From Levilactobacillus fuyuanensis (GTDB lineage Bacteria > Bacillota > Bacilli > Lactobacillales > Lactobacillaceae), in assembly GCF_003946395.1 (NCBI RefSeq), contig NZ_RHNZ01000002.1, positions 1 through 64,000 of the forward strand: a DNA stretch of 64,000 nucleotides, in the 5' to 3' direction. Position numbers and translations under genes: made by a program. Numbering within the stretch: position 1 is the first letter of the stretch; the number at the start of each line of letters is the position of its first letter. The notes beneath the pieces were generated by a model. That model ran no database searches, had not been told where the DNA came from, and was given only the letters and a program-made list of their open reading frames with translations. Shown here in pieces: positions 1 to 19,005 of the stretch.

Positions 1-419
1 GAATCACTGTCGCTATCTGAGTCACTATCGGAGTCTGAGTCGCTATCGGAATCGGAGTCGCTGTCGGAGTCTGAGTCACTGTCGGAATCTGAGTCACTGT
101 CGCTGTCAGAGTCACTATCAGAGTCTGAATCACTGTCGCTGTCAGAATCACTGTCTGAGTCAGAATCACTGTCTGAGTCGGAATCACTGTCGCTATCGGA
201 ATCACTATCAGAGTCTGAGTCACTGTCTGAGTCCGAGTCGCTGTCGGAATCGGAATCACTGTCGGAGTCTGAGTCGCTATCGGAATCTGAGTCACTGTCG
301 CTATCTGAATCACTGTCAGAATCAGAATCGCTGTCAGAGTCCGAGTCGCTATCAGAATCTGAGTCGCTGTCGCTATCTGAATCACTGTCAGAGTCTGAGT
401 CACTGTCGGAGTCCGAATC
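1..419 (-). repeat. Ser-Asp (SD) dipeptide repeat tract
   Basis: In the adhesin frame the codons alternate Ser (TCA, TCC, TCG, AGC, AGT) and Asp (GAT, GAC) without interruption from residue 1541 to the window edge, about 140 residues. The DNA is a degenerate 6-bp tandem array. In staphylococcal Clf/Sdr proteins such tracts form an extended, glycosylated wall-spanning stalk; that role is inferred here. Confidence 0.95.
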
Positions 420-3400
420 TCCTTCAGCCGCGATTGCCAAGTTTGCGTAACTTAACGCGTCGTTTGCTGCGCTAGAAGCCTTGTCTTTTGCTGCATGCGC
501 TGCTGAAGCCGCAGTTTGTGCTTGCGAAGCATACTCTTTAGCTGCCGCATTGTCCCCTGCTGCTTCTGCTGACTTAGCGTTGCTATAATTATCTGCTGCC
601 GTTGAGGCTGCTGATGATGCTTCGGATGCAGCTGTTGCGGCTGTCGATGCAGCAGTTTGGGCGTCGGCTGCATACGAAGCAGCTGATTTGTTATTTGCCG
701 CATATTGATCAGCAACGTTAGCGTAGGAACTCGCAACTGCTGCATAATCGCCAGCAACTGCTGCTGCAGACGCTGCATCTGAGGCTGCTGTTTCGGCATC
801 TTCAGAAGTTGTACCATTAACTGTCAATAACCCAGCACCCAGAGTGGTGGAATTTCCGCCAGAAGTAATCTTCAGGAAGTAGTATCCCGCCTGACTGGTC
901 TTGATGTCGGATAACGAAAGTGTTGAGTTGGTTGCGCCGTCAATAGCCGTTTGCGTACCATCTTCAGTACTTGCAAAATACCATTGGTAAGTTGCCGTGT
1001 CAGAACTTGTCCCAGCATCAGTGGCTGGTGTCCATTCCAAATCATCCCCGGCATTAACCTTCTGATCATTCAGACCACTACCAACTGTGACCACTTTCGT
1101 TGCTTTATAAGTGGTTCCATCCGCATTGGTAATGATTGCCGTAATCGTCGTGGTACCCTTCGCGTCAGCAACAGTTGTCAACACACCAGATGAATCGATG
1201 GTAGCAACTGAAGTATTGCTACTCGTCCAAGTTACATTTCCAGTGGCACTAGATGGATTAGTGTTAGCAACGTAGTTCGTCACATCATTCGTGAAGACAT
1301 AGCTATCACCACTAATCTCAATTCCAGTTGCTGGAATTTCACTATCGTAAATGTCAACTTCTGCGGTGTTGCTGTAAAGTGTGTCACCAATCAAACCATA
1401 TGAGGACTTCACTTGGAAGATTAACGTTCCAGTAAAGTCTTTGTTCGTCTTGACCGTCAATGTTGTACTTAACGTTGAGGTTGTAATAAATCCACCGGTC
1501 TTGTCAGAAGGCGTGGCTGATTCAATATATCCTGCTTTCACAGCATTATCAGTGGTCATCCACTTACCATTTACCTGAACGTACCAAGTTCCTGAGGCCC
1601 CGAAGATGTTACCTAATCCAGCGACCTTAGATGTCGCCGTCAGTGAAATCGTGTTCCCAGCAACTGTCGTCGTCATTGGCGCTGGTTGTTGCGTGTAACC
1701 AGAACTTAACGTAATCCCCCAAAGTGTCGAGGCGTTCCCACTAGGCTTGCTCTGATAAGTGTTCGTCTTGTTTGAGTAGTTCACTGCATAACTAGCTGCA
1801 ATCGTTGCATCAGATGCTGCGGCCGTTGCGACAACCGCGTAGGAAGCGGCTTCGGCAACTGAAGAATCGGCGGCAGCGGCATAAGAACTCGCTTCGACGA
1901 AATTACCCGCACTAACCGCTGAGGAAGCCAATGTCATGTAACTGGTAGCAGCTAAAGCCGCTTGATCACCATACGCAGCGTCCAACAAGGCCGATTGAGC
2001 ATAGTAAGCTGCTTGAGCCACATAAGAAGCACCTAAGCTTGTGTTATTAGGCATTGCATTGGCTAAGGAGTTCGCTACAGATGATGCCGCGTTAGCTTCA
2101 CTAGTCGCTGAGGATGTAATCGCAGCAGCTGAGGATGCTAAGGTCGTCGTGTTATCCAGTTGCGCATCGACAATGACTTTTGTTGCTGAACTAGCAGCTG
2201 TAGAAGCCGCGTTCAATGCATCCTTGGTGTAGGCTAAATTCGTTACCGCTTGGTCATACATCATTTCTGCTGTGTCGGCATCGCCTTCTGCAGCAGCCAA
2301 CGCTGCCGTAGATGCTGCACTAGAAGCTGTTTGTGCTTGTGCCAATGCTTCAGCAGCGGCGGAGACAGCAGCTTCGTAATACTCGGTTGCTCCCGAGTTG
2401 AAGTCAACCGCTGAGGAATAGGCGTTAGTAGCATCGTTAGCATGAGAGCCAGCCACAGTCGCTAAACTCGCTGCCTCACTAGCTGCGGCCGCTGTTAATT
2501 CTGCATAGCTAGATGCCAAGTAATCATTGGCCTTCGCTTTTTCCAAAGCTGTGTTCACATGGCCCAATGCGGCATTTGCTGCTGAACTAGCCGTTGTGTT
2601 ATATGAACTGGCTGTTGAAGCAGCGGCAGCGGCTTCTAAAGCATAAGAGCTAGCAGCCGAGTAATCTTTAGCCGCTTCAAAGGCAGCCGCGTTACTGTAT
2701 GCGGTACTTGCTGCTGAGGCGGCACTCGTTGCATTAGCGGCATTAGTTGCCGCAACAGCTGCATCTGATTTCGCCATATTTGCATAAGAAGTTGCTGCGG
2801 CAATGCCATCAATGTTGGCTACTTCATAAGCATTCGAGATAGCACTGCTAGCATTAGACGCTGCAGCATTTGCCGCATCCGCATAACTTGCCGCTAAACT
2901 GGATGCGTTAGACGCTTGATCCGTGTAATCCCCATTTGCATCAGTGACTACAACTGTCAAAACGTTGGAGGCTGCCTTAAATGCTGTAGAACTTAGGACA
3001 ACACTCTTCTTACCACTTACAACCGCTTGGAAATAGTATGTTCCCGCAACGTTCAACGTGAAGGTATTTGTCGTCTTAGTCTTAGTTCCGGTCGTCGTTT
3101 TCAATTGTGACCAGTTCGTACCGTCAGTAGAATATAACCACGTATAAGTCTGCGTTCCAGTCAAACCGTACAGAGCACCCAAATTACTAATTTCCGTAGT
3201 AATCGTGATCGTATCGCCTACTGACACAGCGTCTTCACTAATTGCAGTCGTCAATGTTGCCCCATCTTTATCAGTCTGCTCACCAGTAACGTGCGTATTG
3301 AATTTCTCTGCTAATGCTGCAGCTACCGCAGCGTCACTAGCTGCTGACGATGCGAGAGCGGCAGAACTGGCAGCTGCCTTAGCGTAGGAAGTTGCATCCT

Positions 3401-5039
3401 TAGCTGTAGAAGCATTGGCAGCATTCACCGCTGCCGTAGAAGCAGCTGCTGCTGCTGAAGCGGCGATTGTTGCTGAGCTGGCGGCATCGGCAGCGTACAG
3501 AACAGATTGGTCACCTTCATACTGTGCCGCCTCCGAAGCTGAACTACTAGCAGCCGTTGCATCAGAACTAGCATTGCTTGCACTGGCCGCTGCACTGTTC
3601 GCAATGTTTGAAATTGCTAACGTAGAAGCTTCCTCAGCCTTTGCCTGTGCAACGCTCGTAGCCGTCGTAGCTGTTTCCAAAGTCGTCACAGCTTCACTCG
3701 CTAAGCCATTAGCCGTTGACAGAGCACCCATCGCAGCGTTGTATTCCGTATCGTCCGTAGCAGTTGCAGCGGCTTCGGCGGCATTACTTGCCACCGTCCA
3801 AGCTTGCGCTGCTTTGGTAGCAGCATCGTTTAAGGCTGCAGCAGCACTGCTTGCTTCAGCTGCGGCACTGTTAGCTGCTGAGTAAGCTGATAACGCAGCA
3901 GAATTGGTTTTATCATATTGTGTTGCCGTGTAAGCACTACTTGCAGCAGCGGCAGCCGATGCAGCCAATTCATTGGCCGTGCTGGCAGCGGCGTTAATGC
4001 TGGTGCTAGCACTGCTGACCAAGTATACGATCTGTTGTGTTGCGGCGTTCCGTGTAGCCATCGCGGCAGAATCTGCCATTGATGCGTATGAGCTCACTTC
4101 AGCCGTGTACGACGTTGCCATAGACAATGCATTCACGTAAGCCATAGTGTTCGCGCCGACATCCCCGGCGGCACCCCCGGCGGCAATATCGATTGAAGCC
4201 TGAGAGTACATCGCAGCTAAACTATTATAGTGCTCAACAAATTCGTAAGCTTTTGCAGCTTCCTTGTAGGCACTCTGTGCGGCGCTGTTTGCCGTTTGAA
4301 CGTCTAACGCATTTTGAGTTTCTACAACCGCTGCATAGCTACTTGCCGAACTAGCTGCGGACGAAGCAGCTGCTAAATTAGCAGCCGCTTCCGCATTCTC
4401 TTCAGCTGTACTATTATCATTGGCAGCACTTGATCCGACCGTAGCGCTTTCATAAGAAGGCGTTACAACTGCCTTTTTAGTAGTTGCGACCTTGGTTACC
4501 ACTTTATTCACATTGGTGGTCAACGTCACATCTACTTTAGCCGTTGATGCCAAACTAGCAGCAGTGGCCGAATCGGTCACTGCACTTGCGGCACTTATGG
4601 CTTCAGCAGAAGTGCTCGTCGCACTAGTAGAACTCGCGGCACTTGAAGATGTTGTTTCTGAATGACTGCTAGTCGCAACTACTTCATCCTCTTGTACGGC
4701 AGTTGCCGCAGATGAAGCCGCGCTAGAAGTAGCTGAAGAATCCGCACCACTAGCTGAAGAGCTGGCGGCCTCAGATGTTGCTTCAGATGTATTAGTTGAT
4801 GATGCGTTCGACTCTAGTTCATCCGCAGCCGCGCCTGCTGAGCTTGCTGCTGATGAAACAACCTGTGCATTACTACTGGTATCGGCTTGACTAGTGCTAT
4901 CTGCACTTGCGGTCAATGATCCAGCCCCCAAAAGCGAAAATGATGCCAGTGCAGCGAAGACCCAGGTCTTCCCTACCTTGTACATCTTGTACCGCAGCTT
5001 GGGGTCGCCATTAAAAGCTTTATTCCGCATGAATTTCAC
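1..5039 (-). CDS. Large KxYKxGKxW-signal Ser/Ala-rich adhesin with SD repeats (partial, C-terminus off the window)
   Basis: A single open frame of about 1680 codons runs from 5039 to the left edge; I read it through and met no stop. The GTG at 5039 follows AAGGAGGA by 9 nt; the ATG at 5030 is too distant. Residues 18-26 form the KxYKxGKxW signal motif (KMYKVGKTW), followed by a hydrophobic core and an AxA-type site near residue 45; in serine-rich adhesins this signal type is associated with the accessory SecA2/SecY2 route. Next come a Ser/Ala-rich stalk (about 45-590), an Ig-like segment (about 594-700), more Ala/Ser helical repeats of ASSYA/ASSAA type (700-1100), Ig-like segments (about 1100-1407, with a Big_2-like part at 1237-1319 containing [14 protein letters not shown]), another Ala/Ser stretch, and an SD tract from residue 1541. 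An LPXTG anchor is expected beyond the edge but is not visible. Likely a glycosylated cell-surface adhesin; the ligand is unknown. Confidence 0.93.
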
Positions 5040-5903: not shown

Positions 5904-5945
5904 AACCAAAAGGACCCAACACTGGTATTCACCAATGCTGAGTCC
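5904..5945 (-). terminator. Intrinsic terminator after the matrixin pair
   Basis: On the minus strand GGACTCAGCATTGGT pairs with ACCAGTGTTGGGTCC (15 positions, three of them G-U) around a GAAT loop, followed by TTTTGGTTTGT. It separates the matrixin genes from the adhesin transcript. Confidence 0.75.
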
Positions 5946-5953
5946 CTATCTCA

Positions 5954-6823
5954 CTATTTAGTTGAAAGTTGACCGTTATTATAAATGACGGTCATTTGTT
6001 GGCCACTCAAAACAGCAGCTCCTAATTTACGTGGATGCTGCCAACTGATTCCAGCCAATGCGACTGCCGCTGCATCCATCGGCGTGCTACGAATTCCTTT
6101 GCGATTAGCTGGCAACATGTTAGGCCCGGTCTCCCAGACACTCATGACCTCCGGCGTAATGTAGCCGATGGCCCCGGCATTCCCGCCAGTCTTGCCACCG
6201 CCTAACGTCGGGATACCCAGTGCGTGTCCCATCTCACGAATCAGCACTGCCTCACGGTTATTCTGATCCTCAGCCGCGGTGAATCCCTTCGTCTTCCAAT
6301 TTGCCGGGTAGAATTTCATCCCCGTGCCATCGTACTGCTGACCACCAATGTATTTATCCTTACTCTTGGCATCATGGATAATCTCATCGCTGGCCTTCGC
6401 TTTATCGACAACCTGCACAATGTCATAACCAGCGACCCGATTCCAAAACGCAGCGGCATCCTTGACCATTGGCGTTGTCATCATCTTAGACTCGCTGTAT
6501 ATCTGTAAGATGCCATCGCTCCCCACAAAGTTTCGGATACTTTTACCATTCATTTTGTAAACGTGGCGGGTGGCAACTGCATCCAAACTATGATTACCCG
6601 TGTACTTTGTGCCATGGGTAATCTTGGTGAGCCGTTCGAGCTCTGACTGCTTATACGTTTTTAAATTGATGACGCCATCGACTGTATTCGTCGCCTTCGT
6701 CCGCTGATAATAGTGCGCATCGTCAGTCATCGAAGCATTCAACCGATTGAGCCCCATGAAGACACCCGCCACCACGAGTGCTAGGACTAACAGAATGGCC
6801 AGTCGTTTCGTTAATTTTGTCAT
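5954..6823 (-). CDS. Matrixin-like membrane-anchored protein with degenerate zinc site
   Basis: 289 aa with one N-terminal membrane segment (about residues 8-24) and an extracytoplasmic domain closely similar to the product of the gene immediately upstream. Where that paralog has HExxHxxGxxH, this protein has REMGHALGIPT at 196-206. The first zinc histidine is Arg (CGT) and the third is Thr (ACG), while Glu197 and His200 remain. The Met-turn region (PEVMSVW) is still recognisable. With two of three zinc ligands missing it is unlikely to be an active metalloprotease; a regulatory or substrate-binding pseudo-enzyme is the simplest reading. The ATG overlaps the upstream stop as ATGA and follows GGGGGAG, so translation is probably coupled. 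Confidence 0.85.
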   Translation of the reverse strand: MTKLTKRLAILLVLALVVAGVFMGLNRLNASMTDDAHYYQRTKATNTVDGVINLKTYKQSELERLTKITHGTKYTGNHSLDAVATRHVYKMNGKSIRNFVGSDGILQIYSESKMMTTPMVKDAAAFWNRVAGYDIVQVVDKAKASDEIIHDAKSKDKYIGGQQYDGTGMKFYPANWKTKGFTAAEDQNNREAVLIREMGHALGIPTLGGGKTGGNAGAIGYITPEVMSVWETGPNMLPANRKGIRSTPMDAAAVALAGISWQHPRKLGAAVLSGQQMTVIYNNGQLSTK

Positions 6824-7686
6824 GCTTCACTCCCCCGTGGAATTGTTGACGTTAATTTTCCGTGATTGTAGGTGACCGCAGCCGTTGGGGTCGTCAGCAC
6901 CCAGCTAGCCAATTTACGCGGTCGTTGCCAGCTCAAACCAGCAAGGGCCAGTGCCGCCGCATCAACCGCCGTACTGCGCACACCCAAAGGATTACGCACC
7001 GGTCGCCACGGCGCCATGAACTCCGTCGTGATGATTCCTGAACTGGCCGCGTTCCCACCCAGTGGTCCGCCACCCAAGTGTGGAATGCCTAAGGCGTGGC
7101 CAATCTCATGAATCAGTGCCGCTTCCTGCCAATTCTTCTGATCCTTGGCTGAGAGGCCACTCAGGTGCCAATTTTGAGGAAAAAACACCAAGCCTTGGCC
7201 GTTGTAAGCCTGTCGTCCTAAGACACCACGCTGAATCTCATCGTCATGAATCACCTCATCGCTTAGCCGCTGACTGTCGACAACTTCAACGATTTGAGCA
7301 CCTGCGATCTGATTCCAGTAAGCAGCCGCATCTCGAACCATTGCCGTCGTCATAAAATTAGATTTGTTGTACAGCTGCAGCACGCCATCCTGCCCAACAA
7401 TGTTCGGAAGTGGCTTCCCCTCCAATTGATAGGCATACTTCGTCGCGGCCAGATCCAAGCTCGTATTGCCATGATATTGGCCGCCATGCGTTATCTGCGT
7501 CAACTTGGTCAGCTCTTCTTGGGAATAGTACCCTCGCGCAATGGTCCCACGATTATCGGTCTTCGTTCGCTGATAGTAGTGTCGGTTCGGACCGCCTACG
7601 ACACGCTGCGTGACCTGATATCCCAAAAATCCAACGAGAATAATTCCCAAGATTACAGCCATCCAGATTCCTCCTGAACGATGCAT
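6820..7686 (-). CDS. Matrixin-family (M10-like) membrane-anchored zinc metalloprotease
   Basis: 288 aa. I start it at the ATG at 7686, 7 nt after AAGGAGG; the in-frame GTG at 7692 is only 1 nt from that site. A membrane segment at about residues 8-26 places the catalytic domain outside the cell. The full zinc motif HEIGHALGIPH is at 193-203 (His193, Glu194, His197, His203), followed by a Met-turn (EFMAPW). The gene lies between the adhesin and the glycosyltransferases and shares a coupled transcript with its degenerate paralog, so processing or shedding of the adhesin is a reasonable guess. No substrate can be read from the sequence. Confidence 0.9.
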   Translation of the reverse strand: MHRSGGIWMAVILGIILVGFLGYQVTQRVVGGPNRHYYQRTKTDNRGTIARGYYSQEELTKLTQITHGGQYHGNTSLDLAATKYAYQLEGKPLPNIVGQDGVLQLYNKSNFMTTAMVRDAAAYWNQIAGAQIVEVVDSQRLSDEVIHDDEIQRGVLGRQAYNGQGLVFFPQNWHLSGLSAKDQKNWQEAALIHEIGHALGIPHLGGGPLGGNAASSGIITTEFMAPWRPVRNPLGVRSTAVDAAALALAGLSWQRPRKLASWVLTTPTAAVTYNHGKLTSTIPRGSEA

Positions 7687-7704
7687 GTGCACACCTCCTT
7701 AGAT

Positions 7705-7743
7705 AGAAAAACCGCCCCAACAAAAAACGTTTTCGGCGGTTTC
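7705..7743 (-). terminator. Intrinsic terminator after the glycosyltransferase genes
   Basis: On the minus strand AACCGCC pairs with GGCGGTT around an AT-rich loop, followed by a T-run. It lies between the last glycosyltransferase stop and the ribosome binding site of the matrixin gene. Confidence 0.75.
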
Positions 7744-7751
7744 CCTTTACT

Positions 7752-9293
7752 TTAATCCGTTGTAACGGCGGTCTTATCTTGGGTCAGACTGGTAAAGTAG
7801 TCCAGCAGTTGTTGCCACTGTTCAAAAACAGCATCTTCGGAGTAACGCTTGGCATTCTCATACGCAGCATCACTGTATGCGCGCAGTTGCTCCCGGTCAC
7901 TGAGCAACTCAATCAAGGCATCTGCTAATTGCTGTGGCTTGCCATTTTCCGTTAAGATCCCGGTCTCGCCATCCTGGATAATATCGCTAGGTCCATACTT
8001 CACGTCGTTAGCAACCATCGGTACCCCGTGAGATTGGGCTTCCAACAAGGTCAACGAGAAACCTTCTGCACGACTTGGCAGAACACCCAGTTGAGCACGG
8101 TCGTACACGGCGCCAATATCATGCGTGTACCCCTTGAAGCTGACAGCATCGGTCAGGCCAGCATCGACCACCTGTTGCTTGAATTTCTTTTCAATATCAC
8201 CGTTGGCGTAACCCCAGAGTTCGAGGCGGGCATCCGGAAATTGTTGATGCACCTGCGCAAAGGCTTCAATAGAATGATTTTGCTGTTTTTCCGGTGCCAA
8301 CCGAGCCACGTGCACGATCAGATTCTTCTGGCGTTTGTCGAACGCCTGGTGCTTGCGAGCAATCTCCTCGTCGGTCACATAACCAACGGGAATGGTAAAT
8401 GCCGGAATTGCCGTCCCGAACCGGTCCACAATATCTTGCGATTGCTCTGGTGTTGCCGAAATTACGGCATCCCACTTGTCCCAATTATTTAACGCATTCG
8501 TATAGTTGTTATTCAGCGGCGAGTGTAACATATCACTGGGATCGCTGACGTGGTCGTTGTGCAGATGGAGCACCTTAAACGCCGACGTCTGCATGTGAAA
8601 GAGTGCCCAGTCACATTCCACAGTTCGGTCACAGATGAAGACGTTGGCTGTTGACTGCGCATTTAACTCATCATAGAAGAAACGCGTCAATTCATTCATC
8701 CCACTAAAGACCCAGTTACTCTGACGATAATTCAATACCCGCCAAGAAATGCAGGCCTTGCCAGCACGATTGAGGTAATGATTCTTTTCAATATGCACCA
8801 GGCCATCCGGCCCAAAGTACTGTTCCTGAGAAATCTTGCCTTCCCAGTCAAAGAGCTGCTCGAGACTCTTGAAGCCACGAACGTCCCACCAAACCATCTT
8901 AATGGTTCGGCCGTTAACGTCGAAGTATTGGACATTACTAATTTCCTCACTGTCCTTGCGGAAATAGATGATCATCATCATTTTCCCCTGGGCAAAGACC
9001 TGAAGCTGATTATCCTTCCGCGTTGTCGTCGTGTTTGCCGGTAAGGAGAAGTCATTCATGGCAAATGACTTGGCAACCACATCAACACTGCCACAGAAGA
9101 ACTCAAACAAGTTCACAAAGTTTTCACGCGCAATACCTGCCTGCCGCAGGATGTTTGTGAGATCCATCGAGAAGACACGCGTCACGATTTTAGCTGGCAC
9201 CTGATGCTTGTCAAACAGCCGTAACCGGTTGATTTCGGCTTGTTCGATTCCTGATTTTGAATATTGCATGTTGTCATTTAAAAAATAATACAT
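7752..9293 (-). CDS. GT4 glycosyltransferase, TarM/SdgB/GtfA-like (paralog C)
   Basis: 513 aa from the ATG at 9293, which has AAAGGAAGG upstream; a longer frame from a TTG at 9314 reads through that site. The start MYYFLNDN is shared in form with two paralogs upstream. The N-terminal half is the beta-rich extension found in TarM, SdgA/SdgB and accessory-Sec GtfA proteins; the C-terminal half is a GT-B fold. VARLAPEKQ supplies the Arg/Lys donor-phosphate site, and EGFSLTLLE is an intact EX7E motif. Such enzymes add GlcNAc or glucose to Ser/Thr of surface proteins or to teichoic acid. Beside an SD-repeat adhesin, Ser O-glycosylation is the favoured role (inference). It lies 30 nt after paralog B. 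Confidence 0.88.
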   Translation of the reverse strand: MYYFLNDNMQYSKSGIEQAEINRLRLFDKHQVPAKIVTRVFSMDLTNILRQAGIARENFVNLFEFFCGSVDVVAKSFAMNDFSLPANTTTTRKDNQLQVFAQGKMMMIIYFRKDSEEISNVQYFDVNGRTIKMVWWDVRGFKSLEQLFDWEGKISQEQYFGPDGLVHIEKNHYLNRAGKACISWRVLNYRQSNWVFSGMNELTRFFYDELNAQSTANVFICDRTVECDWALFHMQTSAFKVLHLHNDHVSDPSDMLHSPLNNNYTNALNNWDKWDAVISATPEQSQDIVDRFGTAIPAFTIPVGYVTDEEIARKHQAFDKRQKNLIVHVARLAPEKQQNHSIEAFAQVHQQFPDARLELWGYANGDIEKKFKQQVVDAGLTDAVSFKGYTHDIGAVYDRAQLGVLPSRAEGFSLTLLEAQSHGVPMVANDVKYGPSDIIQDGETGILTENGKPQQLADALIELLSDREQLRAYSDAAYENAKRYSEDAVFEQWQQLLDYFTSLTQDKTAVTTD

Positions 9294-9323
9294 TCCCGGA
9301 CCTTCCTTTCTCAAGCCGCTACG

Positions 9324-10841
9324 TTAGGCTTTGAGCGCCTTCTGCCAACGATTCCAGACCTTCCGCCGCGTCCACTGTGTATGCGACTTCGCATAAGCAG
9401 CATCACTAAACGCCGTTAATTTGGCCGTATCAGTGAACAAGCCCACAATCTTCTCAGCCATCTGGAGGTTCTGCCCTGGATCAATCAGATAACCATCCTG
9501 GCCTTCCGTGATCAACTCAGCTGGACCATAGTTAAACCTGTAGCTGACAGCTGGAATCCCGTGCATCAGCGCTTCCATCATAGCCAGTGGTCCACCATCG
9601 GCCAGCGACATATTCGTCAGGACCTGATAATGATCATATTGCTCAGTTAAATTAGCATCGTAGTCCTTAAAAAAGACACTGCCGGTCAAGTTAAGCTCAC
9701 CCGTGAGCTTCTTCATGTCCGTAACATACTGCGGATCGCCGTAGCCAAATAGCGTGAACGTGGCATCCGGCACCCGGTCCTTAACGAGCGCAAACATCCG
9801 CAATTGTTGATCAATCTGCTTATCTTGACCGATCCGGCCAACATACAGCAAGCTATGCGGTATCCGCTGTGCCGGTGCGACTTTCTCCGTTTCCTCCTTA
9901 GATAATGGTAGCGTCGTAACGGCTGGTATGGAGAAGACGTGTGCCTTTGGGAAACGCGTCGTCAGGTTTTCTGCTTGTTGAGAAGTTGCCGTGATAAAGC
10001 CATCAAAGTGGCCAAAATGCTCAAAGGCTGGTGCCAGGAAGCCATCCAACTCAGCATGTACGGGGTCATTCGGATTGACTGCGTGGTTGATTGGAATATA
10101 GAGATACTTCCGGGAGGCATCATTTAAGGACAACAATGGTTGAACCCCAGTACCTGGGCGGTCGACGATAAAGGTCGTCGTCTCACTGTCTTGATTACTC
10201 AATTCGTTTAAGAAGAAATTGAACAGGTCGTCCGCGTTCTGGAAGAAGCGGTCCCCCTCGCCGTGATAATCCTTCAAGATCATCCGTGAAGGCAACGGCT
10301 TGCCCTCTGTATCTTGGGCATAGTACTCTTCCAGCACCGTTTGCCCAGCTGGGGTGTAGTACCGCTGTAAAATTAATTTGCCATTCTGACCAAAGTACTG
10401 CGTCGCCGATTTAAATCCACGCCAATCCCAGAGATCGGTTCCAATCCGATTACCCTGTGGATCGAAGAATTCCTGATAGAAGACGCGGCCAATGGTGCCA
10501 GGAATAAACCCAACATTTCCCACCAAGCGGTCCCCGTCAGCGACACCACTAAAGTTGGCCCCAACGGTAACTTCATACTCGATTGGAATATTGATATTAT
10601 CCGCAGTCACCACTTTGACATCCGTATAATCCGTAACCCCTTGGAAGTAATCGAACATGTTCACAACCTGATCGTCAGTTACCCCAAAATCACCAATCGT
10701 CCGATGAAGCAGACGGTCATAGATCTTCGTGACAATCTTTGCAGGTGCTTTGTAGTGGTTAAACAACTTAACCCGGTTCATCGCCGTATGCTCAACACTT
10801 GAATTTTTTTGCAGAATATACTCGTTGACAAAATAATACAC
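9324..10841 (-). CDS. GT4-fold glycosyltransferase paralog B with altered EX7E motif
   Basis: 505 aa. I choose the GTG at 10841: it gives the family start VYYFVNEY and has GGGAG about 11 nt upstream, whereas the ATG at 10859 overlaps that site. Domain layout matches paralogs A and C. The C-terminal motif reads DGGPLAMME, so Asp replaces the first Glu of EX7E and Gly-Pro replaces the usual Phe-Ser, although VGRIGQDKQ keeps the basic residues. In accessory-Sec systems a catalytic GtfA pairs with a non-catalytic GtfB; B could be such a partner for A or C (inference). Alternatively it is an active enzyme with a tolerated change. Confidence 0.85.
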   Translation of the reverse strand: MYYFVNEYILQKNSSVEHTAMNRVKLFNHYKAPAKIVTKIYDRLLHRTIGDFGVTDDQVVNMFDYFQGVTDYTDVKVVTADNINIPIEYEVTVGANFSGVADGDRLVGNVGFIPGTIGRVFYQEFFDPQGNRIGTDLWDWRGFKSATQYFGQNGKLILQRYYTPAGQTVLEEYYAQDTEGKPLPSRMILKDYHGEGDRFFQNADDLFNFFLNELSNQDSETTTFIVDRPGTGVQPLLSLNDASRKYLYIPINHAVNPNDPVHAELDGFLAPAFEHFGHFDGFITATSQQAENLTTRFPKAHVFSIPAVTTLPLSKEETEKVAPAQRIPHSLLYVGRIGQDKQIDQQLRMFALVKDRVPDATFTLFGYGDPQYVTDMKKLTGELNLTGSVFFKDYDANLTEQYDHYQVLTNMSLADGGPLAMMEALMHGIPAVSYRFNYGPAELITEGQDGYLIDPGQNLQMAEKIVGLFTDTAKLTAFSDAAYAKSHTQWTRRKVWNRWQKALKA

Positions 10842-10893
10842 AGTGCAACACTCTCCCATTCGTTTTGATTAATGGTTCCTGTATTCCTGATGT

Positions 10894-10990: not shown

Positions 10991-12502
10991 TCATTTTGGC
11001 TGACTATTCAAAGATTGAACCAATTTTTCCCATTTTTCCATCGTTTTTGTCGGCGAATAGGCTTGTACTAATCGTTGTGCATTCCCCATGAAGGTCAGCT
11101 GGAGTTCCCTATCTGACAGGTATTCACGCATCTTTTCAACGAGCTGTTCCTGATCATTAACGGGGACCAAGAAGCCATTTTCACCGTCATGAATCATTTC
11201 ATTTGGTCCATAGCGAATATCGTAACCAATCACGGGAATACCATAGCTTAATTCCTCAACGGTCGACAGTGAGAAGCCCTCTTCAACACTCGTCATCAGG
11301 GCTAAAGAAGCCTGTCGGTACTCATTAGTCAGGTCCTTCTGGAACCCTCTGAGGAAGACATAATCTCCTAAACTGTGTTCATTAATATACTTTTGAAGTT
11401 CATTTTTGATTTTATTCCCAAATCCTAATAAATGTAACTGAATGTCTGGAAATTCCGGAACGAGTGCTTCAACCGCCTTGACCTGATGCATGAGCTGCTT
11501 TTCCGGTGAGTACCGGGCCACACTAATAATCCGGTGCGGGTCCCGCCGCATCACATCGATCGGTTGGGCCGTCGCATACCCTACTGGAATCGTCGTAATT
11601 GGTGGCAGATTACTGAAACGCGCCAAAAGATCCGTCCGTTGTTGCTCGGTAGACACGACGATCCCGTTAAACCGCTCTGGATGCGCCAGGATATAATCGT
11701 AAATACCATGCTTGAGTGCCCCCGTCACAATGTCTTGGCCCACCCGAACATGGGTGCTGTGAAAGACTGGGCAAATTTTAATATCTGGTCGTGTCCGATC
11801 CAGAGCCGGCGCCATCTTCCCGTTGCGATCAGAGAAGAAAATATCGCCATCCTGAGCCAATTCATTGAAAAAGAAAGTCTGCAACTCTGTCTCATCATTA
11901 AAGTAGTAATCTCGCTGACCATAATTTTTCAGCGTTACCGACCGCAATACAGACTTCCCATCGACCTGCTTGCATTGTTTAATCATTTTAACTTGTTGGT
12001 CTGGACTGTAGTAAAGCTCCGTATTGACCTGATTGTTCTCAACCAATAGGCTCGTTCGACTCAAGAACCCCCTACTGTCATAAACATCCCGGCGAATCTT
12101 GTTGTGATCGTGATCAAAGTAATTAATGTAATCGACTTGACTATAATCCTTATCTAGAAAATGCGCATACATTAAAAACTGGCCATCCTCATTGTCGACC
12201 CGCACATCATACGTGTCTGGAACGTCCCGCAACTGGTAATGGCAGGTCATCTGCCAATAATGGCGCCAATCAAAATGCCCCACATCTTGATACTGACGAC
12301 TTTCCTGAAAATAATCATACATGGAGAAGCCAACGCCTTGGAAACCAAACTTCTTTAAATGTTCATGCAACCGTGAGCCATACGCCAAATACACCAGAGC
12401 TGCCGGCATACCTGCCGTTTGAAACAAGTGCATCCGGTTAAACTGGGCCTTTTCAATGCCAGTCACCGCCGACCCCAAATTCATATCTACAAAATAATTC
12501 AC
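10991..12502 (-). CDS. GT4 glycosyltransferase, TarM/SdgB/GtfA-like (paralog A)
   Basis: 503 aa starting with GTG at 12502 behind GAGGTGAGGG. The N-terminus MNYFVDMN matches the other two paralogs. The N-terminal extension runs to about residue 300 and is followed by the GT-B catalytic half with VARYSPEKQ (donor phosphate binding) and an intact EX7E motif in EEGFSLSTVEE. It is the first gene of the surface-glycoprotein locus, and a TATAAT lies about 85 nt upstream without a clear -35 box. Teichoic-acid glycosyltransferases of the TagE/TarM type share this architecture, so protein versus wall-polymer acceptor cannot be settled from sequence alone; the linked adhesin favours a protein. Confidence 0.88.
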   Translation of the reverse strand: MNYFVDMNLGSAVTGIEKAQFNRMHLFQTAGMPAALVYLAYGSRLHEHLKKFGFQGVGFSMYDYFQESRQYQDVGHFDWRHYWQMTCHYQLRDVPDTYDVRVDNEDGQFLMYAHFLDKDYSQVDYINYFDHDHNKIRRDVYDSRGFLSRTSLLVENNQVNTELYYSPDQQVKMIKQCKQVDGKSVLRSVTLKNYGQRDYYFNDETELQTFFFNELAQDGDIFFSDRNGKMAPALDRTRPDIKICPVFHSTHVRVGQDIVTGALKHGIYDYILAHPERFNGIVVSTEQQRTDLLARFSNLPPITTIPVGYATAQPIDVMRRDPHRIISVARYSPEKQLMHQVKAVEALVPEFPDIQLHLLGFGNKIKNELQKYINEHSLGDYVFLRGFQKDLTNEYRQASLALMTSVEEGFSLSTVEELSYGIPVIGYDIRYGPNEMIHDGENGFLVPVNDQEQLVEKMREYLSDRELQLTFMGNAQRLVQAYSPTKTMEKWEKLVQSLNSQPK

Positions 12503-16215: not shown

Positions 16216-17076
16216 ATGACAACTGCCATCGTTACCGATACTGCGTCTTATCTCACTGCCGACCAAATCGCACAAAACCCGATAACGGTCTTGCCCATCA
16301 CGGTCATTCTCGGTGGGCAACAGTATCCCGAGTCAGAACTAAGTCCACAAACTTTCTACGATTATTTAAAAACCGATAATGAACTGCCAACGACTGCACA
16401 GGTCTCCCTGGGGCAGATTGAGGATGCCTACGACGAGCTGGCTCGTCAGGGCGTCGATGAAATCATCTCGATTCACCTCTCCAGCGGGATCACCTCGTTT
16501 CTCAGCAATCTAAAGATGTTCTGCCGGACCTATACCAAGGCGAAAATCTACCCGGTGGATTCCCTAGTCGCCAGTGCCGGCGAAGCTAATCTTTGCCTGT
16601 TGGCGGGTAAGCTGATCAAAGCCGGCCAGACCGCCGAACAGATTATTCCCCAGCTGACCGCCCTCCGCGATACACAACAGGTCTACTTCGCCGTGGATAA
16701 CCTGAGTCATTTAGCGCGAACCGGGCGATTGAGTAATCGGTCAGCCATGATTGGCAACCTCCTCAACATCAAACCACTCCTGACGTTCGACGACACTGGT
16801 AAGATTATTGCCATCGACAAGGAACGGACGATGCGTAAGGCTTTTGGCTTCATCACCGACCACCTGACCGCCCGTCTGCAGGAAGTTGATTACCCGCTCC
16901 ATGCAACGGTCATCGACGCTAATAACGAAGAGACCGCCCTCCGGTGGCAACAGGCCTTGCACGAGCAGTTCCCGCAAGTTCGTGTCTCACGAAGCGCGTT
17001 AGGCCCTGCCATTAGCGTGCATACCGGTGAAAAGACGATGGGTGTACTGTGGCAACAGGATTGGCAATCGATTTAA
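16216..17076 (+). CDS. DegV-family fatty-acid-binding protein
   Basis: 286 aa behind AAAGGGGAACGCTT. The N-terminus TAIVTDTASYLT, the SIHLSSGITSF motif and the second-domain FAVDNLSHLARTGRLSNR segment are typical of DegV proteins. These bind a fatty acid between two alpha/beta domains and serve FakA-type fatty acid kinases as FakB subunits. No fakA is in the window. The gene is inserted between spxH and pepF relative to Bacillus order and faces pepF across a shared terminator. Confidence 0.9.
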   Translation: MTTAIVTDTASYLTADQIAQNPITVLPITVILGGQQYPESELSPQTFYDYLKTDNELPTTAQVSLGQIEDAYDELARQGVDEIISIHLSSGITSFLSNLKMFCRTYTKAKIYPVDSLVASAGEANLCLLAGKLIKAGQTAEQIIPQLTALRDTQQVYFAVDNLSHLARTGRLSNRSAMIGNLLNIKPLLTFDDTGKIIAIDKERTMRKAFGFITDHLTARLQEVDYPLHATVIDANNEETALRWQQALHEQFPQVRVSRSALGPAISVHTGEKTMGVLWQQDWQSI

Positions 17077-17100
17077 CCTTACAGATCATACGCGTAACCA

Positions 17101-17154
17101 AAAAAGCTGGCGTCATCACCGCATATTGTGCAGCGATGACACCAGCTTTCTTTC
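17101..17154. terminator. Bidirectional terminator between degV and pepF
   Basis: AAAGCTGGcGTCATC and GATGACaCCAGCTTT form a long stem with A-runs on the left and T-rich sequence on the right, serving convergent genes. Confidence 0.85.
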
Positions 17155-17196
17155 ATTGCAGATTGTTTACGACAGTCATGCAAGTCTTCATTAGTT

Positions 17197-19005
17197 TTAC
17201 TTCTTCAACTCACGGGCTAATTTACTAAATTCAGCTAGCCGTTCGTCAAAGGTCTTGAATGCCGTCTCCAGGTAATCTGGCTTGGTCATGTCGACCCCAG
17301 CCTTCTGCATCACTTCAATTGGTAAGGCGGAGCTCCCGGACTTCAGGTAGTTCAGGTAGGCATCGCGCTTAGTGGCATCCCCACTCAGAATGCGTTGTGC
17401 CAGCGTGGTTGCGGCCGCAAAACCAGTGGAATACTGGTAAACGTAGTAGTCGTAGTAGAAATGTGGAATCCGCGTCCATTCGTCGGCAATCTGTGGATCG
17501 GAAATCACCCCGTCACCATAGTAGCGTTGATTCAGGTCGCCGTAAAACTTACTCATGAAGTCTGCGGTCAATGTTTCACCGGCAGCCGCCTGTTGGTGAA
17601 TGTAGTCTTCGAATTCGGCAAATTGCGTTTGACGGTAGACCGTCCCCTTGAAGCCATCCAGATAATGGTTCAAGACGTAAGCTCTGACTTGTGGGTCGGT
17701 TTGCGTCTTTAACAGGTAATCCGTTAAGAGGTTTTCGTTAGTCGTCGAGGCAATTTCCGCCACGAAGATCGAGTAATCCCCGTATTGGTAAGGTTGATTA
17801 GTCCGCGTATAGTGGCTGTGCATGCTGTGACCCATTTCATGAACCAGCGTGAACAGGCTTTCCAGGCTATCCTGCCAGTTCAGAAGGATGTAAGGCTTGG
17901 TGTCATACATCCCACCTGAATAGGCCCCAGTCCGCTTGCCCTTGTTTTCGACCACGTCAATTGCACGGCCATCAAACATCTTCTGTACGTTGGCCACGTA
18001 ATCTGGTCCCAGCACACTCAGTGCCTTGAGTGCTTCCTGCTGCGCTTCTGGATAGGTATACGACAGGCTGGGTTCCCCCGTAATCGGCGTATACAGGTCA
18101 TACATGTGGAGCTCAGGCAAGCCCAGAATCTCCTTACGTAGGTTCACGTACTTGTGTAGAGAATCCAAGTGGTCATTGACCGTCTTGACCAGCGTGTCGT
18201 AAACGACAGCGGGCACGTTGTTACTACTCATTGCAGCTTCACGGGCACTGCCGTAATGCCGGACCTCAGCACTGAAATTATGCGTTTTAACCTCGCTGGA
18301 CAGCGTGCTGGCAAATGTATGCCGGAATTGTTGATAGACGCTGTACAGAGCCTTAAAAGCCTGCTCACGAACCTTGGGTTGGGTTGATTGCAGTAAGACG
18401 CCATATAACCCCTCGGAAAGCTGAACATCATTCCCTGCTTCGTCTTGAACTACTGGGAACTTCAGGTCGGCATCGCTCAGTACACTGTAAGTCTTGGCAG
18501 AAGCGCCAAAGATATCGCTGGCACCGGCCAGTAGTTTTTCCTCAGCGGCAGACAACGTGTGATCACGTTGTTCGCCTAAGACATCGAAGAAGTGTTGGTA
18601 TTCAGTCAGCCGTGGTTCGGCGTCAATCAGCGCTTGTAAGGCAACCTGTGGTAAGGCGAGCACTTCTGGTTCGTACCAGGAAGTTGCCGCAGCTACTGTT
18701 GCAACTAGGCTTTCGGCCTGGCCGGACAGGGCTTGTGCATTGGCGTCACTGGTATCTTGATCGTTTTTAAGGGAGGCGTACACGTACACCTTTTCCAGCT
18801 GGCGATTAAGGTCAAAAATTGCAGCGGTCACTTCGTAAAGGTCGCCTGCACTTTCTGCGAGTTGACCTTGCTTAGTTGCCACTTGCTTGGCTTGCGCCTT
18901 GATTGCGGCAACGGCCTGCTTAAAGGCCGCGTCATCGGCATAAATTGGGGTCAGGTCCCAGGTCAAAGCCTCGGGAACTGCCGCGCGTTCGGGAATTTGT
19001 TTCAT
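17197..19005 (-). CDS. pepF: Oligoendopeptidase F (M3B)
   Basis: 602 aa, normal for PepF. The start ATG follows AAAGGAGGATTAGGAAA. HEMGHSMHSHY at residues 389-399 contains the HExxH zinc site of M3 peptidases, and the flanking FTLV, TNEN and GFAAATTLA segments are typical. It is a cytoplasmic enzyme that cleaves peptides of roughly 7-17 residues, used in peptide utilisation. It lies downstream of coiA, the same neighbours as yjbF-yjbG in Bacillus. Confidence 0.96.
   Translation of the reverse strand: MKQIPERAAVPEALTWDLTPIYADDAAFKQAVAAIKAQAKQVATKQGQLAESAGDLYEVTAAIFDLNRQLEKVYVYASLKNDQDTSDANAQALSGQAESLVATVAAATSWYEPEVLALPQVALQALIDAEPRLTEYQHFFDVLGEQRDHTLSAAEEKLLAGASDIFGASAKTYSVLSDADLKFPVVQDEAGNDVQLSEGLYGVLLQSTQPKVREQAFKALYSVYQQFRHTFASTLSSEVKTHNFSAEVRHYGSAREAAMSSNNVPAVVYDTLVKTVNDHLDSLHKYVNLRKEILGLPELHMYDLYTPITGEPSLSYTYPEAQQEALKALSVLGPDYVANVQKMFDGRAIDVVENKGKRTGAYSGGMYDTKPYILLNWQDSLESLFTLVHEMGHSMHSHYTRTNQPYQYGDYSIFVAEIASTTNENLLTDYLLKTQTDPQVRAYVLNHYLDGFKGTVYRQTQFAEFEDYIHQQAAAGETLTADFMSKFYGDLNQRYYGDGVISDPQIADEWTRIPHFYYDYYVYQYSTGFAAATTLAQRILSGDATKRDAYLNYLKSGSSALPIEVMQKAGVDMTKPDYLETAFKTFDERLAEFSKLARELKK

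Follow-up and report, generated by a model that had tools for sequence, protein, structure and literature searches.

A maintained pseudoprotease with a predicted matrixin fold at the adhesin locus of Levilactobacillus

Levilactobacillus, a genus of lactic acid bacteria of fermented foods, contains a relative of the matrixin metalloproteases that has lost two of its three zinc ligands and that is almost certainly a maintained bacterial pseudo-matrixin. It is encoded, next to a paralogue with an intact zinc signature (the active copy), in a stretch of 64,000 nucleotides of Levilactobacillus fuyuanensis (contig NZ_RHNZ01000002.1, positions 1 to 64,000), hereafter the window. We class it as a pseudoprotease because catalytic residues are lost, the fold is kept in the predicted model and the protein forms a clade under purifying selection. 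Tentatively, from sequences and structure models, we read this metzincin pseudoprotease as a core component of the adhesin locus that would bind the adhesin without cutting it, the active copy being optional. Eukaryotes are the best-known source of pseudoproteases, and in the open-access literature searched we found no earlier description of a bacterial matrixin pseudoprotease, and nothing on a matrixin in Levilactobacillus or, together with serine-rich repeats, in Lactobacillus.

The gene pair and its predicted fold

Both reading frames of the pair are uninterrupted on the minus strand, with the active copy upstream and the pseudo-copy downstream (Table 1). The first-pass annotation had described HEIGHALGIPH in the upstream copy and REMGHALGIPT in the downstream one, the loss of the first and third zinc ligands with retention of Glu and the second His, an intact frame and an overlap of stop and start as ATGA, and all of this is borne out in the window. 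An alternative start of the active copy is the first GTG, at 7692, which would give an ORF of 6820-7692; the ATG at 7686 is the likelier start, judging by an AGGAGG that is well spaced upstream of it. Despite the ATGA overlap, the pseudo-copy has its own ribosome-binding site, GGGGGAG. The two proteins are paralogues, 50% identical to each other, and the pseudo-copy of the window is 94% identical to that of L. parabrevis. In both, a membrane helix follows a short N-terminus, and neither contains a cysteine in the window genome, so that both are expected to be membrane-anchored with their domain outside the cell.

Table 1. Features of the pseudo-matrixin region in the window
Feature	Position	Strand	Remarks
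Serine-rich SD-repeat adhesin, KxYKxGKxW signal	3..5039	-	3′ end missing at contig start
Strong terminator-like hairpin just after the pseudo-copy	5910..5947	-	17 pairs, -25.8 kcal/mol, z -5.7
Pseudo-matrixin, 289 aa	5954..6823	-	N-terminal membrane helix, predicted extracellular matrixin fold, zinc site lost
Degenerate signature REMGHALGIPT of the pseudo-copy	6206..6238	-	R196, E197, H200, T206
ATGA overlap, active stop / pseudo start	6820..6823	-	parabrevis group only
Active matrixin-like protease, 288 aa from ATG	6820..7686	-	N-terminal membrane helix and predicted extracellular metzincin domain
Intact zinc signature HEIGHALGIPH of the active copy	7078..7110	-	
Hairpin and T-run between GT3 and the active copy	7705..7746	-	z -2.9; conserved in relatives
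GT3, SdgA/SdgB-like glycosyltransferase (GT4 type)	7752..9314	-	
GT2, SdgA-like glycosyltransferase	9324..10859	-	Asp1/GtfB-like N-terminal part
GT1, SdgB-like adhesin O-glycosyltransferase	10991..12502	-	

The Pfam matrixin model PF00413 gives the active copy 14.4 bits, below the cut-off of 24 bits, and has no match to the pseudo-copy; the matrixin label of the first-pass annotation therefore draws on the predicted fold and the zinc signature and not on Pfam, and the active copy is filed as matrixin-like. The AlphaFold models of the pseudo-copy and the active copy (pLDDT 78 and 79, respectively; pTM 0.78) both have karilysin, MMPs and snapalysin as their top structural matches, with Foldseek E values of 2e-4 to 3e-4 and VIA-align Z scores of 10.6 for the pseudo-copy (to karilysin) and 9.9 for the active copy, over 137-138 residues at an rmsd of 2.6-2.9. 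With the bacterial matrixins (MEROPS M10A-like, such as karilysin of Tannerella forsythia) both copies share the predicted fold of the catalytic domain, at a VIA Z of about 10, and the Met-turn Met, which is invariant in active copies and present in 21/21 pseudo-copies (Met227). The active copy also shares the signature HExxHxxGxxH, found in 12/12 active sequences and in all 8 outgroup sequences. Karilysin differs in that identity to it is only 15-17%, and in that the proteins described here have an N-terminal membrane anchor and fall short of the Pfam matrixin cut-off. The pseudo-copy differs from bacterial matrixins by the lack of two zinc ligands; none of its 21 sequences has the three-histidine zinc site, and it is predicted to be non-catalytic.

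Origin, distribution and selection

In a phylogeny built with the motif columns removed and rooted by the outgroups, the pseudo-copies form one clade (support 100/99) and the active copies another (89/81). Since the pseudo-copies are a single clade and the outgroups all carry HExxHxxGxxH, the tree points to a single duplication and a single loss of the zinc site, which appear to date back at least to the common ancestor of those Levilactobacillus species in which the family occurs. Along this tree, ligand 1 has two state changes (the loss itself and one exchange between R and K) and ligand 3 has five. As to whether the Arg and Thr substitutions are fixed in orthologues, a check proposed by the first-pass annotation, at ligand 1 a basic residue is fixed (R in 18 and K in 3 of the 21 sequences), whereas ligand 3 varies (S in 8, N in 7, T in 5, D in 1) and is His in none. 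Glu197 and His200 are each present in 21/21. Two signatures were inspected by hand, REIRHALGIPD in the pseudo-copy of genome G182 and HEIGHVLGIPH in the active copy of HBUAS51381.

Full-length homologues of the pseudo-copy are found in 20 of the 35 Levilactobacillus genomes, which shows that it is not a chance frame, and no species seen has an interrupted frame. An intact active copy accompanies it in eleven of these 20 genomes and is missing in 9/20, of which seven lack the gene, one has a remnant and one a broken gene; the active copy without the pseudo-copy occurs in none of the 35. Those of the seven genomes lacking the active copy that could be matched to named species belong to the brevis group of the tree. 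In G182, the active remnant lies between GT3 and the pseudo-copy, with about 40 N-terminal and 30 C-terminal residues that align and an in-frame stop. In L. yonginensis (a draft assembly), the active copy lies next to a transposase gene and is broken by a frameshift and an in-frame TAG. On the pseudo-copy tree, the active copy has been lost independently at least three times. Natural stops account for the stop marks in some tblastn rows. Family-wide (397 genomes) and order-wide (395 genomes) searches found no pseudo-copies outside Levilactobacillus, and the relatives found outside the genus, including one in a genome named Enterococcus (L059), have the active-type signature. A horizontal copy on plasmids was also considered and had no match in the plasmid collection. 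A third relative of 1067 aa, of the active type and with C-terminal GW domains, is present in L. yonginensis (L058:7986-11186) and in G406, where it occupies the slot in which the brevis group has its pseudo-copy.

Is a protease gene without its zinc site maintained or decaying? The first-pass annotation had argued for maintenance, and this is upheld by monophyly, intact frames, the invariant Glu, second His and Met-turn Met, and low dN/dS. Random zinc-site states or frameshifts in orthologues, which would have indicated simple decay, were looked for and not found. Pairwise estimates for nine matched species pairs (codon maximum likelihood, own script) put dN/dS at 0.037-0.080 for the pseudo-copy, against 0.055-0.136 for the active copy. 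The pseudo-copy has the lower value in 8/9 pairs, single values being rough because many pairs have a dS close to 1 or higher. Pairs from lineages without the active copy give 0.056-0.072 for the pseudo-copy and thus no sign of relaxation where it is the only copy. The loss of two zinc ligands might have suggested a recent decay caught early, a pseudogene in the making, but this is extremely improbable for an ancient, monophyletic gene that is intact in 20 species with a dN/dS around 0.05, and it is the catalytic copy, not the pseudo-copy, that is decaying. The 20 genomes and the low dN/dS also rule out decay or sequencing error as the source of the pseudo-copy.

Between distant clades, the two copies diverge equally over residues 37-182. 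Identity in the zinc helix and loop is 0.677 for the pseudo-copy vs 0.826 for the active copy, in residues 208-225 it is 0.496 vs 0.654, and in the C-terminal part 0.570 vs 0.655. We read this pattern as one scaffold on which the old cleft side of the pseudo-copy may have been tuned clade by clade; the greater divergence there would fit ligands particular to each clade but also partial relaxation.

The adhesin locus

The pseudo-copy very probably belongs to the adhesin locus. In the mapped genomes it has one chromosomal slot, downstream of RluD, together with a serine-rich adhesin with a KxYKxGKxW signal and with GT2/GT3. GT3 is present in 32/35 genomes, including all those with the pseudo-copy, and an orthologous adhesin in 20/20 genomes with the pseudo-copy and 10/15 of the others, co-occurrence figures that overstate significance because the species are not independent. 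The ten genomes with the adhesin and without the matrixin family indicate that the pseudo-copy is an accessory of the locus and not a requirement.

Gene order is GT1-GT2-GT3-active-pseudo-adhesin in the parabrevis group and pseudo-GT2-GT3-active-(GT1)-adhesin in the koreensis and tongjiangensis groups. In the brevis group it is adhesin-F6-GT2-GT3-NTP transferase-glycosyltransferases, followed in most species by a Mur ligase/PGA_cap fusion, and then the pseudo-copy. The ATGA overlap, from which the first-pass annotation had argued for a maintained partner, occurs only in the window, in L. parabrevis and in one MAG. In other lineages the copies are separated by a short gap or by two glycosyltransferase genes. 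The fusion that lies directly upstream of the pseudo-copy in most of the brevis group is a protein of about 1070 aa with Mur ligase (MurF-like), D-Ala carboxypeptidase-like and PGA_cap parts (for example L044:4770-7970 and L045:4753-7968). F6, which follows the adhesin, is a conserved protein of about 550 aa with no confident family (L089+L090 joined: 16436-18073, and orthologues).

The transferases of the locus are closer to S. aureus SdgA/SdgB than to GtfA/GtfB, with scores of up to 506 bits against an 800-bit cut-off. The combination of an SD-repeat adhesin with SdgA/SdgB-like glycosyltransferases recalls the staphylococcal system, from which the locus differs by scores well under the curated Sdg cut-offs, by the KxYKxGKxW signal, by the adhesin C-terminus without LPxTG and by the presence of matrixin genes. 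Those SD-repeat adhesins whose C-terminus is complete (e.g. L042, L087+L088, L089) share a conserved terminal TLWG-hydrophobic-basic tail that may be a C-terminal sorting signal not recognised so far, and with such a tail in place of LPxTG the mature adhesin may stay near the membrane-anchored matrixins. Some species have a second adhesin, with SE repeats, whose end is LPQTG/LPQTN-like. An accessory Sec (SecA2/SecY2) system is ruled out for the genomes with the pseudo-copy, each of which has a single SecY-type match, below the SecY2 cut-off. A second, SecY2-like SecY was seen only in 7 genomes, all of them without the matrixin family, a distribution that may reflect phylogeny only.

Possible roles and flanking hairpins

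Does the dead copy serve the active one? The first-pass annotation had proposed a maintained partner, of which the maintenance stands, but the genome survey refutes an obligate partnership with the active copy; a facultative one would be compatible with the survey where both copies exist. A dedicated partner, acting on the active matrixin as heterodimer subunit, chaperone or inhibitor in the way of alpha-MPP/beta-MPP, would suit the tandem, translationally coupled genes of the parabrevis group and the presence of a pseudo-copy in each genome with an active one, and pseudoenzymes often regulate their active relatives (PMC11266112). We consider it unlikely, because eight genomes have at most a remnant of the active copy and a ninth a broken one, while their pseudo-copy is intact and under strong purifying selection, and because two genes separate the copies in the koreensis and tongjiangensis groups. 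alpha-MPP and the M16B heterosubunit metallopeptidases also combine inactive and active paralogues with an altered metal motif (HxxDR in alpha-MPP, PMC11266112), but their fold is unrelated and the pair works together, whereas here the dead copy persists alone and the MPP-like co-occurrence of inactive and active subunit fails in the nine genomes lacking an intact active copy.

Since the pseudo-copy is kept even where its sister has decayed, it probably has a job of its own. Our best guess, offered with some reserve, is a stand-alone role in adhesin binding. One membrane-anchored matrixin would have duplicated, and the zinc site would then have been lost once on the pseudo branch; the dead copy would have become the core matrixin-fold component of a locus that makes, glycosylates and displays the SD-repeat adhesin, and the catalytic copy would have become optional. 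Held outside the cell by its N-terminal membrane helix, the pseudo-matrixin may use its old substrate cleft to bind, without cleavage, either the adhesin or adhesin repeats that are partly glycosylated, and so serve as tether, chaperone or protector. In genomes that have it, the active copy may trim or shed the same surface protein as a dispensable processing protease or sheddase, and the two copies may compete for or share the adhesin as substrate. It is possible, if far from certain, that a bacterial metzincin fold has come to serve on its own at the cell surface as a non-catalytic receptor or chaperone of a glycosylated SD-repeat adhesin, with a dispensable catalytic ancestor. In the brevis group the pseudo-copy is the last gene of an operon whose other members encode enzymes such as an NTP transferase and the Mur-ligase/PGA_cap fusion, so the ligand could instead be a wall polymer.

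There are partial precedents. The vertebrate metzincin pseudopeptidases ADAM11/22/23 are likewise membrane-anchored, inactive and kept as extracellular ligand-binding receptors (PMC11266112); they are multidomain animal proteins of another metzincin family. Clostridioides difficile has PPEP-1, a secreted metalloprotease that releases adhesins, and a relative, CD1597, for which no activity was found (PMC11460543); these belong to another protease family, and CD1597 retains HEXXH and is a spore protein.

Two further explanations concern the cleft itself. The pseudo-copy might act as a substrate shield, occupying the adhesin site of the active sheddase or of other proteases, so that its level sets adhesin release. 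Paralogues with the same fold could plausibly share a ligand, and protection from proteases is a theme of such loci, given that glycosylation by SdgA/SdgB shields the SD-repeat adhesins of S. aureus from proteolysis (PMC3794999). We nevertheless regard a shield as quite unlikely, because the cleft-side regions of the pseudo-copy diverge more across clades and the gene persists without its sister protease, though other proteases could threaten the adhesin. A changed chemistry, in which the R/K-E-x-x-H plus S/T/N/D site would bind another metal or act as a non-zinc hydrolase, is improbable: replacement of 2/3 ligands rebuilds no known metzincin site and the third position varies. The invariant Glu197 and His200 and the always basic ligand 1 are more than an idle site needs, but Glu and the second His may be retained for packing or salt bridges.

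If the stand-alone role is true, a kept dead copy with a dispensable catalytic ancestor would be the reverse of the usual account of the pseudoenzyme as helper, and the pseudo-matrixin may be an added protein in the display of SD-repeat glyco-adhesins. One species group provides a natural experiment, with pairs, pseudo-only loci, one decayed active remnant and one broken active copy, and gene deletion in harmless food bacteria could show whether a pseudoenzyme helps its active twin or has acquired a function of its own.

The pair is flanked by two hairpins (Table 1), so that transcription of the matrixin genes may be lower than that of the transferase genes. A hairpin of the type found between GT3 and the active copy recurs in eight related loci (judged by eye) with apparently compensating changes, and it is a possible attenuator of the matrixin genes. 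This hairpin is retained in G182 despite the loss of its active copy.
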